DNA of 51,757 nt from Plantactinospora alkalitolerans (GTDB taxonomy: Bacteria; Actinomycetota; Actinomycetes; Mycobacteriales; Micromonosporaceae): NCBI RefSeq assembly GCF_015690345.1, contig NZ_JADPUN010000203.1, forward strand, positions 1 through 51,757, in the 5' to 3' direction. A program made the translations under genes and the position numbers. The notes below the pieces were generated by a model that saw nothing but the letters and a program-made list of their open reading frames with translations, was not told where the DNA came from and did no database searches. This document shows, in pieces, positions 20,023-25,764 of the stretch; position 1 is the stretch's first letter, and each line of letters opens with the position of its first letter.

Positions 20023-20178
20023 CCACACCCGACGGGCGGCAGCACCGGTGGCCGCCCCGACCGAGGTTGCCCATTGGCTGATGGTGGTCGGCCTCCGTAC
20101 ACTCAGTGCGCCGTTCCGGCCGACCGTGTTCGTCTGGCGTCCTCTGCCGGGATCCGGTCGATCTCTACGGGAGGCCAT

Positions 20179-22206
20179 GTGCCCGCGCTGCCGTCCAGTG
20201 TGCCCGCCGCGGTGCTCGACACCACCTCGATCGCGCTGCTGACCGCGACCGAGCAAGGCGAGGTGACCTGGCACAACCGGGCGGCGCAGCGACTCGGCCA
20301 CCTGATCGGCGCCGACGTCGGTTCCCTGCCGTTCGCGACGGCGACCCCGGACGGCCCGCCGGTCGAGTTGCGTTGCCCGACGGTCGAGGGCACGACCCGA
20401 TACCTGCGGGTGACCTGCCGTCGGCTGTCCCCGCTGCGCGGCGAGGATCCGGCGACGCCGGTCCGGCTGGTCTACGAGTTGACGGACGTGACCGAGCAGC
20501 GGGCCGACCGGCGCCGCGCCGACGACTACGCCTGGCGGCTGACGCACATCGAGCAGCTTGCCCGGGTCGGCACCTGGGAGTGGCACCTGCCGACCGACGA
20601 GGTGGTGTGGTCGCCGACCCTGAAGTCCATGATCGGGCTGGGTCCGGACACCGCTCTGGACTACCCGACCTACCGGACGCTGATCCATCCGGACGACGTC
20701 CGCATGATCGAGGCGACCCTCGTCCAGGCCATCCGGGGCGGCACGTCGTTCACGTACACCCACCGGATGTTCCTGGCGCACAGCCGGGAGATGCGGATCC
20801 TGGAGTGCTACGGCGAGGTTTTCACCGACGAGTCCGGCAAGCCGCTCCGGATGCTCGGCACCGCACACGACATCACCGAGATCCGGCAGGTCCAGGACGA
20901 GCTGGCGTACCTCGCCGAGCATGATCCGCTGACCGGCCTGCCGAACCGCCGGGCCCTCACCGCCCGGATGAGCGAACTGACCTCGATCGCGGCCCCGACA
21001 TCGGCCGCCCTGCTCCTGATCGACATCGACAACTTCAAGGACATCAACGACCTGCGTGGTCACGTCGTCGGCGACGAGGTCCTCCGGCTGCTGGCCCGGC
21101 TGCTGACCGAACACCTGCCGCCCGGTGCCGTGCTCGGCCGGCTCGGCGGCGACGAGTTCGCCGTCCTGTTGCCGTCCTGCGACGCAGACCGGGCGCTCGC
21201 GATCGGCGCCGGAATCTGCGACCTGGTCGCACACACCCCGTTCGCGGTACGCGGAGAGCCGCTGCGGGTGACCCTGAGCATCGGGGCCGCTCCGCTGGAC
21301 ACCTCCGACGGCGACACGCTGCTGCTCGCCCACGCCGATCTCGCGCTCTACCAGGCCAAGGGCGAGGGCCGGAACCGGGCCCGGCTGTTCGCACCGGAGC
21401 AGCAGCGCCTGGCCGCCCAGCGGGTCGACCTGGTGTCCCGGGTCCGGAAGGCGCTCGACACCGGCCAGTTGCAACTCGACGCGCAGCCGATCATCGACCT
21501 CGCCGACCACCGGGTACGCAGCTACGAACTCCTGATGCGGGTCCGCGACGACCAGCGCCGGCAGATCGGCCCCGGCGACTTCCTGCCCGCCCTGGAGCAG
21601 GGCGACATGATCTACGAGTTGGACCGCTGGGTGGTGGAGACCGCCACCCACGCGCTCGCCGCGGCGCGCAGTGCCGGTGTCGACCTCCGGTTCGACGTGA
21701 ACATCTCCAGCCGGTCGCTGGAGGACCCCAGCTTCGGCGACTGGGTGGTCGCCACTCTGGCCGCCGCCGCCGTACCCGCCACCCTCCTCGGCCTGGAGAT
21801 CACCGAGACCACGGCCATCGCCAACCTGGACGCCGCGCGCCGGCTCGCGTCCACGCTCACCTCGGCCGGCTGCGGCTTCAGCCTCGACGACTTCGGCGCC
21901 GGCTACGGATCCTTCGTGTACCTCAAGCACCTGCCGTTCAGCACCGTCAAGATCGCGGGCGAGTTCGTCCGGCAGGCCGACCACGGCGGTTCGGATCCCA
22001 TCCTGATCGACGCCGTGGTCCGCGCCGCGCACGGGCTCGGGATGCGTACCGTCGCCGAACACATCGACCGGCCCGAGCTGGTACCCGTGCTGCGCCGGCT
22101 CGGCGTCGACTGTGGGCAGGGGTACCACCTCGGCCGACCGGAGCCGTTGCACCTGCTGATGGAACGGACCACCACCCGGAGTGGCGCCTCCGCGACCATT
22201 GCCTGA
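20179..22206 (+). CDS. PAS-GGDEF-EAL cyclic-di-GMP protein
   Basis: About 675-aa cytoplasmic protein. It has an N-terminal PAS-like domain (to ~110), a second PAS/PAC (HIEQLARVGTWEWHLPTDEVVW..., ~120-245), a GGDEF domain with an intact GGDEF at residues 323-327 and no RxxD inhibitory site, and a C-terminal EAL phosphodiesterase domain. In the EAL domain the signature reads ELL (Glu450 kept); the NISS, LEITET, DDFGAGYGS and GQGYHLGRP motifs remain. It is probably able to make cyclic-di-GMP; breakdown is plausible but less certain. Start GTG 20179 follows GGGAGG. Confidence 0.9.
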   Translation: MPALPSSVPAAVLDTTSIALLTATEQGEVTWHNRAAQRLGHLIGADVGSLPFATATPDGPPVELRCPTVEGTTRYLRVTCRRLSPLRGEDPATPVRLVYELTDVTEQRADRRRADDYAWRLTHIEQLARVGTWEWHLPTDEVVWSPTLKSMIGLGPDTALDYPTYRTLIHPDDVRMIEATLVQAIRGGTSFTYTHRMFLAHSREMRILECYGEVFTDESGKPLRMLGTAHDITEIRQVQDELAYLAEHDPLTGLPNRRALTARMSELTSIAAPTSAALLLIDIDNFKDINDLRGHVVGDEVLRLLARLLTEHLPPGAVLGRLGGDEFAVLLPSCDADRALAIGAGICDLVAHTPFAVRGEPLRVTLSIGAAPLDTSDGDTLLLAHADLALYQAKGEGRNRARLFAPEQQRLAAQRVDLVSRVRKALDTGQLQLDAQPIIDLADHRVRSYELLMRVRDDQRRQIGPGDFLPALEQGDMIYELDRWVVETATHALAAARSAGVDLRFDVNISSRSLEDPSFGDWVVATLAAAAVPATLLGLEITETTAIANLDAARRLASTLTSAGCGFSLDDFGAGYGSFVYLKHLPFSTVKIAGEFVRQADHGGSDPILIDAVVRAAHGLGMRTVAEHIDRPELVPVLRRLGVDCGQGYHLGRPEPLHLLMERTTTRSGASATIA

Positions 22207-22260: not shown

Positions 22261-22677
22261 CTACCGTCCGCAGGATCCGACGTCGAGGTGGAAGTATCTC
22301 GCGTTGGCCCAGCGGCAGAGCCGGACGCCGACCACGATGCCCACGATCGTGACAAGCGCCGGCAGATAGCCGCTGGCGACCTGGACGATCGGGATCGCCG
22401 GGCATCCGCCGGAGACGGCCCAGCCCGTACCGAACAGCACCGCACCGGGTATCACGCCCGGATGAACACGTCCCGGTGTACGGCGGACCCGGATCAGCGC
22501 GAAGACGACCACGATCATCGCCACGCCGCCGCCGAACGCCAGGAGCATGCGCAGGTCCTGGAACGTGAACATCCGGTTCAGCTCGGCGTAGTCACCGAAG
22601 CCGATGTTGGCGACGACGAAGCCGAGGGCGAGCCCGGCGATGATATTGGCGACGAGAACCCCACCCCGGGTACGCAT
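22261..22677 (-). CDS. YeeE/YedE-type sulfur transporter, small subunit
   Basis: 138-aa membrane protein with about four helices. It has the half-motif GTGWAVSGGCPAIP (Cys92), which is characteristic of YeeE/YedE (TsuA-like) transporters that pass thiosulfate or related sulfur/selenium species by cysteine relay. In many bacteria both motif halves lie in one protein; here they are split over two genes. ATG 22677 shares its A with the TGA of the upstream gene (TGATG), so the two are coupled. Last gene of a three-gene operon. Confidence 0.8.
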   Translation of the reverse strand: MRTRGGVLVANIIAGLALGFVVANIGFGDYAELNRMFTFQDLRMLLAFGGGVAMIVVVFALIRVRRTPGRVHPGVIPGAVLFGTGWAVSGGCPAIPIVQVASGYLPALVTIVGIVVGVRLCRWANARYFHLDVGSCGR

Positions 22678-23333
22678 CACACCACCTTCCACAGCAGGAA
22701 CGACACGACGACGGCGGCGCCGAAGAAGACAGCCGTCGCGACCATGCTGTCCGGATGAAGTCGGCCGCAGCCGTTCAGGCCGTGTCCGGAGCTGCATCCC
22801 CCGGCGAGACGGGTGCCGAAGCCGACGAGGACACCGCCGACGAACAACACGCCGATCATGTGTGGTGGGCTGTCGGTCACCAGGTCGCGGAAGCCGTCGC
22901 CCATGTCCAGCCGGAGGTCGAACCGGCCGGCGGTGACCGCCGCCAGCCATCCACCGAGGAAGATCGACAGGAGCAGGGCCGCCTGGCTGACCAACGGCGC
23001 CGGACGCGGGCTCGCGACCGGAGCAGGCTCGCTCGTGGCCGGCCCGCCCTGCGGGCCGGGCGCCGCTGCCGCACCGGACACCGGGTACGGCGGCGTGGGT
23101 GCCCCGGTACGGGTTCCGAAGTGCTCGGCGGTGGCCGACGCGAGGGCCTCGGTGAGCAGGCGATCGTCGCCGAACTGGGCCTCCATGCGTTCGACCCGGC
23201 GTTCGGCCCGCCACTGCAGGACGCGTTCCCAGGCCGAGGACACCCCGAACGATCGGTCGGTGGTGACGGTGTAGTTGATGGTGACGACGGCGAGCCCCAG
23301 CGCGCCCGCCCACCAGGGCCAGTAATTACTCAT
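22677..23333 (-). CDS. YeeE/YedE-type sulfur transporter, large subunit
   Basis: 218-aa membrane protein. One N-terminal helix is followed by a cytoplasmic Glu/Arg and Pro/Ala-rich stretch of about 80 residues that is not usual for the family. Then come three helices with the hallmark GGCSSGHGLNGCGRL (Cys180). It should pair with the 138-aa product to form a complete YeeE/YedE unit. Its ATG overlaps the stop of the cysteine-motif gene (ATGA). Substrate not determinable; thiosulfate, sulfide or selenium compounds are the family precedent. Confidence 0.8.
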   Translation of the reverse strand: MSNYWPWWAGALGLAVVTINYTVTTDRSFGVSSAWERVLQWRAERRVERMEAQFGDDRLLTEALASATAEHFGTRTGAPTPPYPVSGAAAAPGPQGGPATSEPAPVASPRPAPLVSQAALLLSIFLGGWLAAVTAGRFDLRLDMGDGFRDLVTDSPPHMIGVLFVGGVLVGFGTRLAGGCSSGHGLNGCGRLHPDSMVATAVFFGAAVVVSFLLWKVV

Positions 23334-23773
23334 GCGGGACCTGAGATCCAATCGGCGAAGCGGGTCCACCAGCCACGCCGCCTGCCCGGCGGAGCCGCTG
23401 GTGATTCACCCGGGGTCTGTACGACATGCGCGGACCGTGCCGGCTCCACCGGTTGGGCCGTTCCCCGGATCCCCTCGAATCTGGCCTGGGGCGTCGGTGC
23501 CCAGGCCTGCCGGGAATCCGGCCCTGGCCAGCGGTTCTGGGTCGGCCGGGCCGGCCCGGCCGGCTCGACATCCGGGGTGGCGCGTTTCAGATGCTGCGCG
23601 TGGGCGCCGTTCGGGAGCAGCGTGATCGGCACGACGGCACCCGTGAGCGACAACTCGTATCGGGCACAGCCCCGCCATCCGTCCCCACTGTCACAGTAGT
23701 AGTCCCGCCAGCTGCGCAAACTGGCTCTGAGCAGCGGGAACAAGGGGCATCTTTCGGCGTGGGGGCAGCCCAT
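23330..23773 (-). CDS. Cysteine-motif small protein of the YeeE/YedE operon
   Basis: 147-aa soluble protein. The first ~50 residues carry four cysteines, C3-x5-C9-x17-C27-x8-C36, in the context CPHAERCPLFPLL, SWRDYYCD and GCARYELSLTG, then LLPNGAHAQHL. This could bind a metal or Fe-S cluster, or carry sulfur. The remaining 90 residues are Pro/Arg/Gly-rich and look disordered. First gene of the operon, overlapping the transporter gene by ATGA. I know this short Cys pattern only from unannotated small proteins; no function is proven. ATG 23773 has GGAG 4 bases upstream. Confidence 0.75.
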   Translation of the reverse strand: MGCPHAERCPLFPLLRASLRSWRDYYCDSGDGWRGCARYELSLTGAVVPITLLPNGAHAQHLKRATPDVEPAGPARPTQNRWPGPDSRQAWAPTPQARFEGIRGTAQPVEPARSAHVVQTPGESPAAPPGRRRGWWTRFADWISGPA

Positions 23774-23859
23774 ATCGCTCCAGTCTGATCGACATGCGTC
23801 ACCGAACGGATTGGCGGTCTGGCGTGAGCCCGATCTGGATTATCCAGCGAGCAAGCATA

Positions 23860-23885
23860 GAACATCGTCAGCATGTTCGCATTCC
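23860..23885 (-). promoter_or_regulatory. Promoter and inverted-repeat operator of the Cys/YeeE operon
   Basis: On the minus strand GGAAT (23885-23881) and GTT (23863-23861) are 17 bases apart. This resembles the sigma-R/ECF thiol-stress promoter GGAAT-N16-19-GTT. It coincides with a perfect inverted repeat GAACAT-N7-ATGTTC (23860-23878). Both lie about 90-110 bp before the first start codon, in an AT-rich island. The promoter assignment is inference from pattern only. Confidence 0.4.
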
Positions 23886-23998: not shown

Positions 23999-24967
23999 TC
24001 AGGCCCGGCGGAAGGGCCGGGCCGAACCGGCGAGCGTGACGACCTCGTCCGCACAGCCCCAGGCCAGGGTGACCCCGGCGCCGCCGTGCCCGTAGTTGTG
24101 GACCAGCCGGACCCCGCCGTCGGCCCCCGAGCGGTCCACCGCCAGCCGCGCCCCGCCGTGCCGGGCGGGGCGCAGTCCGGCCAACTGCCCCAGGACCGGC
24201 GCCCCGGCCAACTCCGGGACGAGTGCGAGACACCGGGCCAGGATCGCGGCGCCGACCGCCTCGTCCGGGCCGGTATCCGTCTCCCCCGGCTCGAAGGTCC
24301 CGCCGAGCACCACGTCCCGACCGCGCGGATGCACGTAGGTGATCCCGGCCGGATTGCCCTCGTCCCGCCACGAGGTGACGAGTCCCGGGTTGGCGACCAG
24401 CACGATCCGGCCCCGGACGGGGTGCACGGCGGGATCGTCGGCCAACGTTCCGGCGGCCAGCCCGGTCGCGTTGACCACGACCGGCGCGACGCCGGCCGCC
24501 TCGTCGAGGGTCTCCACCCGGTGCCGGCGTACCTCCACCCCGAGTTCGTCGAGCCGGGCGACGAGCCAGTCCAGGTACGGACCCATCTCGACCGTCGGCA
24601 CGGTGAACCGCCACTGCGCCGCGTACCCGGACGGCGGCTCGGCGGTTCGGAAGTCGGGTACCGCGGCGGACCACCACGGGTCGCCGTCGACCGGGGCGCG
24701 GAGCAGCATCCGGGTCGGCCGCATGACCACACCCGGCACTCCGCCGCCGGCCTGGGCGGCCAGTTCGTCGAAGGTCCGGCGGGCCCAGTCCAGCACCCGG
24801 GGATCGGGGCTGGTCCGGGTCGGATACCAGACCGCGGCGGCGACCCGGGAGACGGTCCGGGCCGGCTCGTCGGCGGTCAGCACGACCACCCGGGCGCCGG
24901 CCTCGGCCAGCCGCACCGCAGAACTGAGGCCGACCACCCCGGCACCCACCACGACCACGTCCGCCAT
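23999..24967 (-). CDS. FAD-dependent D-amino-acid oxidase family protein
   Basis: 322-aa flavoenzyme of the DAO family. It starts with the Rossmann dinucleotide motif VVVGAGVVGLSSAVRLAEAGARV, has SRVAAAVWYP (substrate/FAD loop), VVNATGLAAGTLADD and VRGRIVLVANP. It closes with LVHNYGHGGAGVTLAWGCA, the standard C-terminal FAD-contact motif of D-amino-acid oxidases. Expected reaction: oxidative deamination of a D-amino acid with O2. ATG 24967 puts the FAD motif at the N terminus. It follows the lipoprotein gene by 53 bp in the same direction, so cotranscription is possible. Confidence 0.88.
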   Translation of the reverse strand: MADVVVVGAGVVGLSSAVRLAEAGARVVVLTADEPARTVSRVAAAVWYPTRTSPDPRVLDWARRTFDELAAQAGGGVPGVVMRPTRMLLRAPVDGDPWWSAAVPDFRTAEPPSGYAAQWRFTVPTVEMGPYLDWLVARLDELGVEVRRHRVETLDEAAGVAPVVVNATGLAAGTLADDPAVHPVRGRIVLVANPGLVTSWRDEGNPAGITYVHPRGRDVVLGGTFEPGETDTGPDEAVGAAILARCLALVPELAGAPVLGQLAGLRPARHGGARLAVDRSGADGGVRLVHNYGHGGAGVTLAWGCADEVVTLAGSARPFRRA

Positions 24968-25020
24968 TCGACCAGCGTGCCGCACGACCCGCCGGCTTGG
25001 AAAGGAGGAACCGACGCCGG

Positions 25021-25764
25021 TCAACCGCGCCGGACGTCCACCGCGATCACGAACGTGCCGTCCGTCCGGGTCAGCTCCAGTGCCCGGACCGGCAGCGCCT
25101 GGTCACTTCCGGGCGCCACCTGGAGGCCCAGTCCATAGGTGACATACCCCTCGAAGTCGCCACCGAAGTCGTACCCGCGCAGGGTGGGATAGCCGAGCGC
25201 CGGTCGGTGCGAGGCGGTGACCGACCCCCGGCCCCGCTCGTCGTGCGCCTGGGCCTGGATGAACCGGACGCGGAGAAAGGCGTTGCCCGGCAACCGAAGC
25301 GGCTCCCCGGTCCCCTCGGCGGAGACCTGTGCGACGTATCCGAGTTCGTAGGACGGGAAGCCGCCCCGGAAGGTGAACGAGATCCGGCTGTAGCCGGACC
25401 GCTCCTCCGGGTGGTCGGCGGCCCGGATCTCCACGAGGTACGGCAGCGGTGGAGCCGGCGGCGGGGCGACCGGCGGCCGGACCCGGTGGCGGACCAGGGC
25501 CGGCTCGGCCGGAACTCCCCACCCGTACGCCGTGCGGAACGAGGTGACGTCGTCGTCCGGTCCGGTCTGGGCGGGTCCGCCCGGGGTCCGTGGTGGCCCG
25601 GTGCCGGTGCCGGGCGCCACGGTCGCGGCCGGGTCGGTCGGCTGCGAGGAGGGCGCCGGAGGCTGTCCGGACGGTGTGCCGGAACTGCCGCCCGGGTTCG
25701 GTTCGCACCCGGTGAGCCCGAGGAGCAGGGCGAGAGCGAGCAGAGGTACGCGCTGACGTGTCAT
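25021..25764 (-). CDS. AMIN-like domain lipoprotein
   Basis: 247-aa exported lipoprotein: a short signal sequence ends in lipobox LTGC (Cys20), followed by ~65 residues of Pro/Gly/Ser/Thr linker. A beta-rich domain with RISFTFRGGFPSYELGYV and TLRGYDFGGDFEGYVTYGLGL resembles the AMIN-like domain of actinobacterial cell-surface proteins. Function is unknown, probably cell-wall associated. ATG 25764 is preferred because the signal then starts MTRQRVPLL; GTG 25782 adds six residues. Confidence 0.75.
   Translation of the reverse strand: MTRQRVPLLALALLLGLTGCEPNPGGSSGTPSGQPPAPSSQPTDPAATVAPGTGTGPPRTPGGPAQTGPDDDVTSFRTAYGWGVPAEPALVRHRVRPPVAPPPAPPLPYLVEIRAADHPEERSGYSRISFTFRGGFPSYELGYVAQVSAEGTGEPLRLPGNAFLRVRFIQAQAHDERGRGSVTASHRPALGYPTLRGYDFGGDFEGYVTYGLGLQVAPGSDQALPVRALELTRTDGTFVIAVDVRRG

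Follow-up and report, generated by a model that had tools for sequence, protein, structure and literature searches.

A four-cysteine protein encoded in front of a split YeeE/YedE-type transporter: a candidate accessory subunit of a PmpAB-type importer in actinobacteria

Introduction

How sulfur leaves channels of the YeeE type is an open question, and the part of the YeeD study cited here leaves open both the next recipients of the sulfur and the source of electrons (PMC11073785). According to the portions of the literature used here, TsuA is a single chain of nine helices with three cysteines (PMC11582611), and YeeD, a TusA-type protein with a CPxP motif, is required in vivo and binds at YeeE's inner mouth with a "fourth cysteine" (PMC11073785). 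The same portions describe a split form, in which PmpA (about 130 aa) corresponds to the C-terminal half of YeeE and PmpB to its N-terminal half, with one cysteine kept in each (PMC11582611), and an importer of zero-valent sulfur from Cupriavidus, YedE1E2, in which one cysteine per half is required (PMC10812762). In the part of Table 2 consulted from a survey of 8671 genomes, Rubrobacteria are the only actinobacteria with YedE1 or YedE2 (PMC10812762).

Here we ask what a small cysteine protein does in front of such a split transporter in Plantactinospora alkalitolerans, at a locus in a stretch of DNA of 51,757 nucleotides (the window) that a sequence-only reading had taken for a possible sulfur or selenium import module. 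The split importer and its gene order, A before B, are already known; what we add is a four-cysteine gene in front of them, in scattered actinobacteria.

Results

Three overlapping genes on the minus strand

The window sequence reads as a minus-strand trio of overlapping genes, in which the gene for the cysteine protein is followed by a PmpA half and then by a PmpB half, and the range 22261-23885 also takes in 112 bases of DNA upstream of the cysteine gene:

23854..23859, minus strand: promoter-like TATGCT, a putative -10 element judged from sequence, in 10 of 17 aligned upstream stretches
23774..23781, minus strand: RBS-like GGAGCGAT before the cysteine gene, with GGAG in 17 of 17 aligned upstream stretches
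23330..23773, minus strand: four-Cys protein gene (P0001, 147 aa), with cysteines only at positions 3, 9, 27 and 36
22677..23333, minus strand: PmpA/YedE1-like half-transporter gene (P0002, 218 aa), with C180 in GGCSSGHG and an extra invariant C189
22261..22677, minus strand: PmpB/YedE2/DUF6691-like half-transporter gene (P0003, 138 aa from ATG), with C92 in SGGCP and extra invariant C121 and C136

Both structural claims of the sequence-only reading, that P0001 carries four N-terminal cysteines (it has no others) and that the genes overlap end to end, were confirmed. The P0001/P0002 junction reads ATGA and is kept in all 18 loci compared, window included, and the P0002/P0003 junction, TGATG, recurs as (G/C)TGATG in 16 of 16. 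Since the codon at 22680, upstream of P0003, is GTG in the window and five more of these 16 loci but CTG in the other 10, we place the P0003 start at the ATG at 22677 and not at the GTG at 22680.

Two further genes flank the operon: a convergent PAS-GGDEF-EAL gene (20074-22206, plus strand), a relative of which lies near the operon in the close relative G003 alone among the loci in a crude comparison, and, upstream, a gene for an FAD-dependent oxidoreductase (23999-25024, minus strand; DAO family, with a ThiO match below cut-off).

P0002 and P0003 match the two halves of a known importer

Both membrane proteins scored above the cut-off for Pfam Sulf_transp (1.1e-11 for P0002 and 6.6e-7 for P0003), covering positions 177-309 and 10-101, respectively, of the 310 in the profile, and they are the only two such matches in their own genome. 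The GGCSSGHG of P0002 aligns with the AGGC..GH stretch of S. thermophila TsuA that lies in the second half of that protein; the alignment with the stretch in its first half is weaker. As references we used five half-size plasmid pairs (Spirosoma, Halomarina, Paracoccus, Deinococcus and Sphingomonas), picked from 194 weak P0003-matching records, and in profile comparisons P0002 matched the first proteins of these pairs at 99% versus 10% for the second, while P0003 matched the second at 99% versus 4% for the first. Against DUF6691 itself (PF20398) the score was 16.3 bits for a gathering cut-off of 27, yet two of the five proteins matched at 99% are annotated as DUF6691.

The family scan, the TsuA alignment and the profile matches bear out the assignment of the two membrane genes to a split YeeE/YedE, which the sequence-only reading had made while regarding one chain as the normal state. 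That last point needs correcting: because P0002 and P0003 match PmpA/YedE1 and PmpB/YedE2 (DUF6691-type) proteins that are already known, the split is a known form, as the cited parts of PMC11582611 and PMC10812762 describe. Thiosulfate transport, which had been invoked for the family, is known for the one-chain form, but the measured split pair that we found, in the part of PMC10812762 used here, imports zero-valent sulfur. Two other assignments were rejected. A single-chain TsuA/YeeE (about 330-350 aa, three conserved cysteines) is ruled out by the presence of two chains and by an NCBIfam TsuA score of 34.5 against a cut-off of 400, and a selenium YedE is ruled out by family scores, with P0003 reaching 22.4 versus 200 bits and 15.9 versus 350 bits (TIGR04112 and NF033796), so that the suggested selenium import found no support.

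As in PmpA/PmpB (YedE1E2), the membrane genes of the window are short, adjacent and ordered A then B, each with its key cysteine (GGC.SGH and CP); these residues, C180 of P0002 and C92 of P0003, are kept in 16 of 16 sequences. It differs from PmpA/PmpB in the greater length of a hydrophilic stretch of the A half, in three extra invariant cysteines and in the four-Cys gene in front. P0002 is longer than the roughly 130 aa given for PmpA in the cited part of PMC11582611, and its hydrophilic stretch, conserved in the first part and variable in the second, lies between the first two helices and exceeds that of the five references by very roughly 50 residues. Where four transmembrane helices per half are expected, hydropathy gave three regions in P0002, whose first helix was placed by alignment to the references, and four partly overlapping stretches in P0003. 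The extra cysteines (P0002 C189; P0003 C121 and C136, numbered from the ATG) do not vary in any of the 16 sequences, and the five reference pairs have no cysteine in these columns, although C136 falls past the end of most reference proteins and C189 is less special than it appears, since a cysteine (GVCG) stands two residues ahead of its column in three of the five PmpA references. Judging from the positive charges, C121 and C136 of P0003 probably face the cytoplasm, and the additional cysteines would favour a role in sulfur handling.

The cysteine gene and the transporter genes occur together

Among 200 genomes of the family (the organism's own included), P0001 matches occurred in 16 and P0002 matches in 17 before weak rows were dropped, namely G063, which covers residues 62-144 only, and G104 and G193, which are partial (E 7.8e-4 and 2.0e-4). 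After this step, relatives of P0001 and P0002 were found in the identical 15 of 200 genomes, in four genera and adjacent, a coincidence that does not stand for 15 independent events because the genomes are related. In each of the 15 the P0001 relative (a remnant in G069) lies directly before the P0002 relative, three Streptomyces loci show the same arrangement, and P0003 follows P0002 in 17 of 18 loci, Streptomyces included, the contig of G077 ending inside P0002. Within its own genus the cysteine protein is present in 6 of 7 genomes, and the seventh (G005) lacks both it and the PmpA half. A class search with the bare 62-aa domain returned the own genome only, among 296, and the unit is therefore rare outside the family.

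The cysteine domain evolves slowly (dN 0.05-0.22 versus dS 0.26-1.01, window against seven relatives). Because relatives of the parts keep their order in other genomes and dN is low relative to dS in this domain, the unit is not a product of chance; the view that the genes are chance neighbours, or that P0001 is a mispredicted ORF, is contradicted by the co-occurrence, the conserved overlaps and the purifying selection on the domain, and we regard it as barely conceivable.

Beyond the unit, no orthologue-like gene recurs across genera in the fetched neighbourhoods of the 18 loci (crude ORF picking), which makes the three genes a compact test case. The other cross-genus clusters from this crude ORF comparison, with family names assigned by eye, are alpha/beta-hydrolase-like (25-38% identity, 4 loci), LysR-like (~32% identity, 3 loci) and one weakly matching pair (47% identity over 87 residues, at 2 loci), and we took them as members of large families and not as a conserved neighbour. 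Pfam detected no sulfur-metabolism family among the 12 neighbour genes of the window at 13-34 kb, which encode parts of a sugar-type ABC transporter, GGDEF-EAL, DAO oxidoreductase, AMIN-like, polyprenyl synthetase, FtsX, LacI and esterase proteins, with one unmatched. The five plasmid pairs differ here, having nearby an MBL-fold or beta-lactamase-domain gene in 5 of 5 cases, TauE/SafE in 3, rhodanese in 1 and TusA plus DsrE in 1. The single TusA match of the own genome lies on another contig. A mobile or viral origin of the unit was also considered and rejected: the plasmid collection held no relative of P0001 or P0002, viral contigs gave no match to the P0001 alignment, and phages held no relative of two distant four-Cys members.

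P0001 has a conserved cysteine domain, a variable linker and a conserved tail

Alignment, substitution rates and structure prediction divide P0001 into three parts:

23588..23773, minus strand: four-Cys domain, residues 1-62, with C3, C9, C27 and C36, and H5 invariant in close relatives
23375..23587, minus strand: variable Pro-rich linker, residues 63-133, delimited by alignment, dN/dS and pLDDT
23333..23374, minus strand: conserved C-terminal WWTRxxDWI, a helix in a low-confidence model and predicted to be amphipathic from its hydrophobic moment

In 16 aligned close sequences, a set that leaves out two altered copies (G069 and G126), C3, H5, C9, C27 and C36 are invariant and the surrounding CPLFP, YCD, CARY and LLPNG nearly so; conservation of the cysteines, which the sequence-only reading had singled out for checking, is thus complete in this set. 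The domain is followed by a Pro-rich linker of variable length and then by WWTRLADWI.GPA, of which WWTRxxDWI is conserved in 15 full-length relatives. The linker evolves fast (dN 0.24-0.56 and dN/dS 0.33-0.81 in five pairs within the genus), and for the last 14 codons dN/dS is about 0.3-0.9 and once undefined, in seven pairs of very short stretches, values that lend the helix no support. The predicted models are weak (mean pLDDT 56.5 for whole P0001 and 69.7 for the domain alone), with pLDDT below 50 at residues 66-107 and 112-125 and a helix at 135-143 in the low-confidence P0001 model; the hydrophobic moment of this tail helix is 0.48-0.81 in 12 sequences. The disordered tail described earlier therefore stands for the linker but not for its end, since the last residues, WWTRxxDWI, are conserved.

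P0001 resembles no protein to which it could be assigned. Scans of Pfam, NCBIfam and PHROGs gave no family match, and identity with TusA, rhodanese or another named family was rejected; hydropathy revealed no transmembrane stretch; the weak domain model had no fold match in the PDB; and PDB sequence matches of P0001 and the domain stayed at chance level (E 0.91; 0.42 and 0.78). Pieces of the domain and distant members gave, against family models, only weak matches or a match to a fused glycosylase. A name for the domain is absent from the Pfam, NCBIfam and PHROGs scans and from the literature searched, where it may be described under other words.

The arrangement is like YeeE-YeeD (TsuA-TsuB) in that a small cysteine protein is encoded next to an importer of the YeeE family, and unlike it in that the transporter consists of two chains and P0001 is not of the TusA type. 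Identity with a YeeD/TusA partner is ruled out by the missing TusA match and by a CP site that reads CPLF and not CPxP. The YeeD precedent might nevertheless be followed in function, with single cysteines of P0001 carrying a persulfide or thiosulfonate from the channel in succession, like C17 of YeeD, and the extra invariant cysteines in both transporter halves would suit such a relay. Against it speak the lack of any TusA family match and of the CPxP motif given in the cited part of PMC11073785, and the fact that all four cysteines are equally invariant even in members without a transporter (see below), so that they look more like ligands of one centre. We consider this relay rather unlikely.

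The four-cysteine domain is wider than the transporter unit

Our searches for the domain covered one phylum of whole genomes, plasmids, phages, viral contigs and one scan of genome contigs for close relatives. With the profile of close relatives only, matches were obtained in G609 (7.7e-8), G629 (1.8e-5) and G777 (5.1e-5). These three and the own genome were the ones used of 12 matches in 396 genomes from the first phylum search at E 0.01; the eight others (E 0.0017-0.0081) were treated as chance. Six of the eight loci (L026-L030 and L033) were checked with one motif pattern, which also misses L024 and L025, and a wider profile, applied at E 0.001, had no hit in two of the eight genomes (G706 and G569). 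Wider profiles and the plasmid search added a Leptolinea protein, G525 and G772, as well as G613, G643 and G662 (three copies each), G628, G647 and G687, these last six from a search of 296 genomes in which 10, the own genome among them, matched at E 1e-4. The domain is seen in at least two phyla.

Across 30 sequences of this wide family, C3, C9, C27, C36, R38, P49 and P54 are invariant. The first cysteine pair is C-x5-C, and the second is C-x6-C in 16 distant rows versus C-x8-C in the clade of the window. Profile comparisons gave 96.9% between the close and the distant set, 95.0% between the close and the glycosylase-linked set and 89.2% between the two distant sets, percentages that are strong hints and not proof because the alignments are shallow. 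Small four-Cys proteins of the pattern C-x5-C...YC-x6-C.R...P....P (for example BCY19589.1, on a Leptolinea plasmid) share the domain of P0001 at the first of these values, but those examined have no such linker or tail helix and no YeeE-type gene nearby. The second value refers to a C-terminal tail of family-4 uracil-DNA glycosylase, present in G687 and G628 of the same phylum, which shares YC...C.RY and LPDG and, unlike P0001, is fused to a DNA-repair enzyme. The glycosylase fusions lie at L104:1416-2219 and L105:738-1454, and a stand-alone version lies in L106. At another locus (L074:1-2700), repeats whose translations repeat "SIHAPAWGAT" resemble a CRISPR-type array about 2.3 kb from a four-Cys gene.

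No YeeE-type motif was found in any of 19 distant loci of 3 to 12 kb from 12 genomes and one plasmid (nine of the loci belong to one genus), where the best match to P0002 or P0003 had E 0.20. The co-occurrence that had been proposed as a check thus holds for the carriers among the 200 family genomes (15 of 15, beside the transporter) but not for distant members of the domain (0 of 19), and because of the latter the domain appears general and its union with the transporter a special use. Since all 19 lack a YeeE-type neighbour and two are fused to uracil-DNA glycosylase, the chemistry of the domain need not concern sulfur.

These observations bear on a structural role, in which the cysteines would bind zinc to hold the fold only and the protein would stabilise or assemble the two half-transporters. 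Two invariant cysteine pairs in a domain of 60 aa whose sole other invariant residues are R38, P49 and P54 are in line with this idea, as are the recurrence of the domain in unrelated contexts and a conserved tail helix through which P0001 could contact the transporter; however, no zinc-ribbon or other fold was found (with a weak model), and the extra cysteines of the transporter would be left unexplained. We hold an adaptor of this kind to be possible but not probable. The equal conservation of the four cysteines throughout the family would in any case favour one common centre.

Three genomes carry a second four-cysteine gene

In G116 (L009/L017), G126 (L014/L018) and G069 (L015), the four-Cys domain also occurs in a second gene, joined to an unknown part some 240 residues long, and this gene starts 1.1-1.3 kb or so upstream of the transporter-side gene (about 1.1 kb in G069); the fusion proteins of L014 and L017 matched nothing in Pfam or NCBIfam. 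The transporter-side copy is intact in G116 and has four cysteines without a tail helix in G126. In G069 it keeps the helix and only C3 of the four cysteines, which counts against reading P0001 as an accessory subunit, although the upstream fusion gene there is intact. The small sample hints that domain and tether may be supplied by different genes.

Such fusions could also point to a sensor, in which P0001 would read cytoplasmic sulfane sulfur or the redox state and gate the importer or report to a regulator. A precedent is SoxT1B, a YeeE relative that signals with a repressor according to the cited part of PMC11582611. Across genera, though, no orthologous regulator is linked to the unit, the LysR-like genes near 3 of 18 loci sharing only about 32% identity, and we find a sensor distinctly improbable.

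Discussion

Our preferred reading, which we hold with slightly more confidence than doubt, is that the three genes encode a PmpAB-type importer of sulfane sulfur with P0001 as an accessory cytoplasmic subunit. The position of the cysteine gene right before the split importer suggests, as far as gene order can, that its product is a working part of the importer; the formation of a complex, the membrane side, the substrate and the chemistry are what we infer from the comparisons above.

Under this accessory-subunit reading, P0002 and P0003 would form a channel of the PmpAB (YedE1E2) type through which sulfane (zero-valent) sulfur, or else a related ion, enters via the membrane cysteines C180 and C92. 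The C-terminal amphipathic helix of P0001 would anchor the protein to the membrane or the channel, and the flexible linker may place the four-Cys domain at the inner mouth. By analogy, the YeeE-YeeD structure shows that a place of this kind exists and that a cysteine there matters. The four cysteines would function together in a single centre, whose likeliest form is a bound metal or Fe-S site or a set of two dithiol pairs, and this centre may accept, reduce or gate the incoming sulfur where the TusA-type YeeD sits in YeeE systems. A direct hand-over of sulfur is possible, and a metal or Fe-S centre about as likely.

More tentatively, a widespread four-Cys mini-domain may have been co-opted by actinobacteria as a third, tethered PmpAB subunit, forming at the inner mouth a redox or metal centre by which sulfane sulfur is reduced or accepted, a proposal we think could be right without expecting it to be. 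The unit offers a possible functional context for a four-Cys domain that is unmatched in the copies of Pfam, NCBIfam and PHROGs scanned. If the proposal is true, a tethered four-Cys subunit would be a new solution to the problem of what receives sulfur from channels of the YeeE type.
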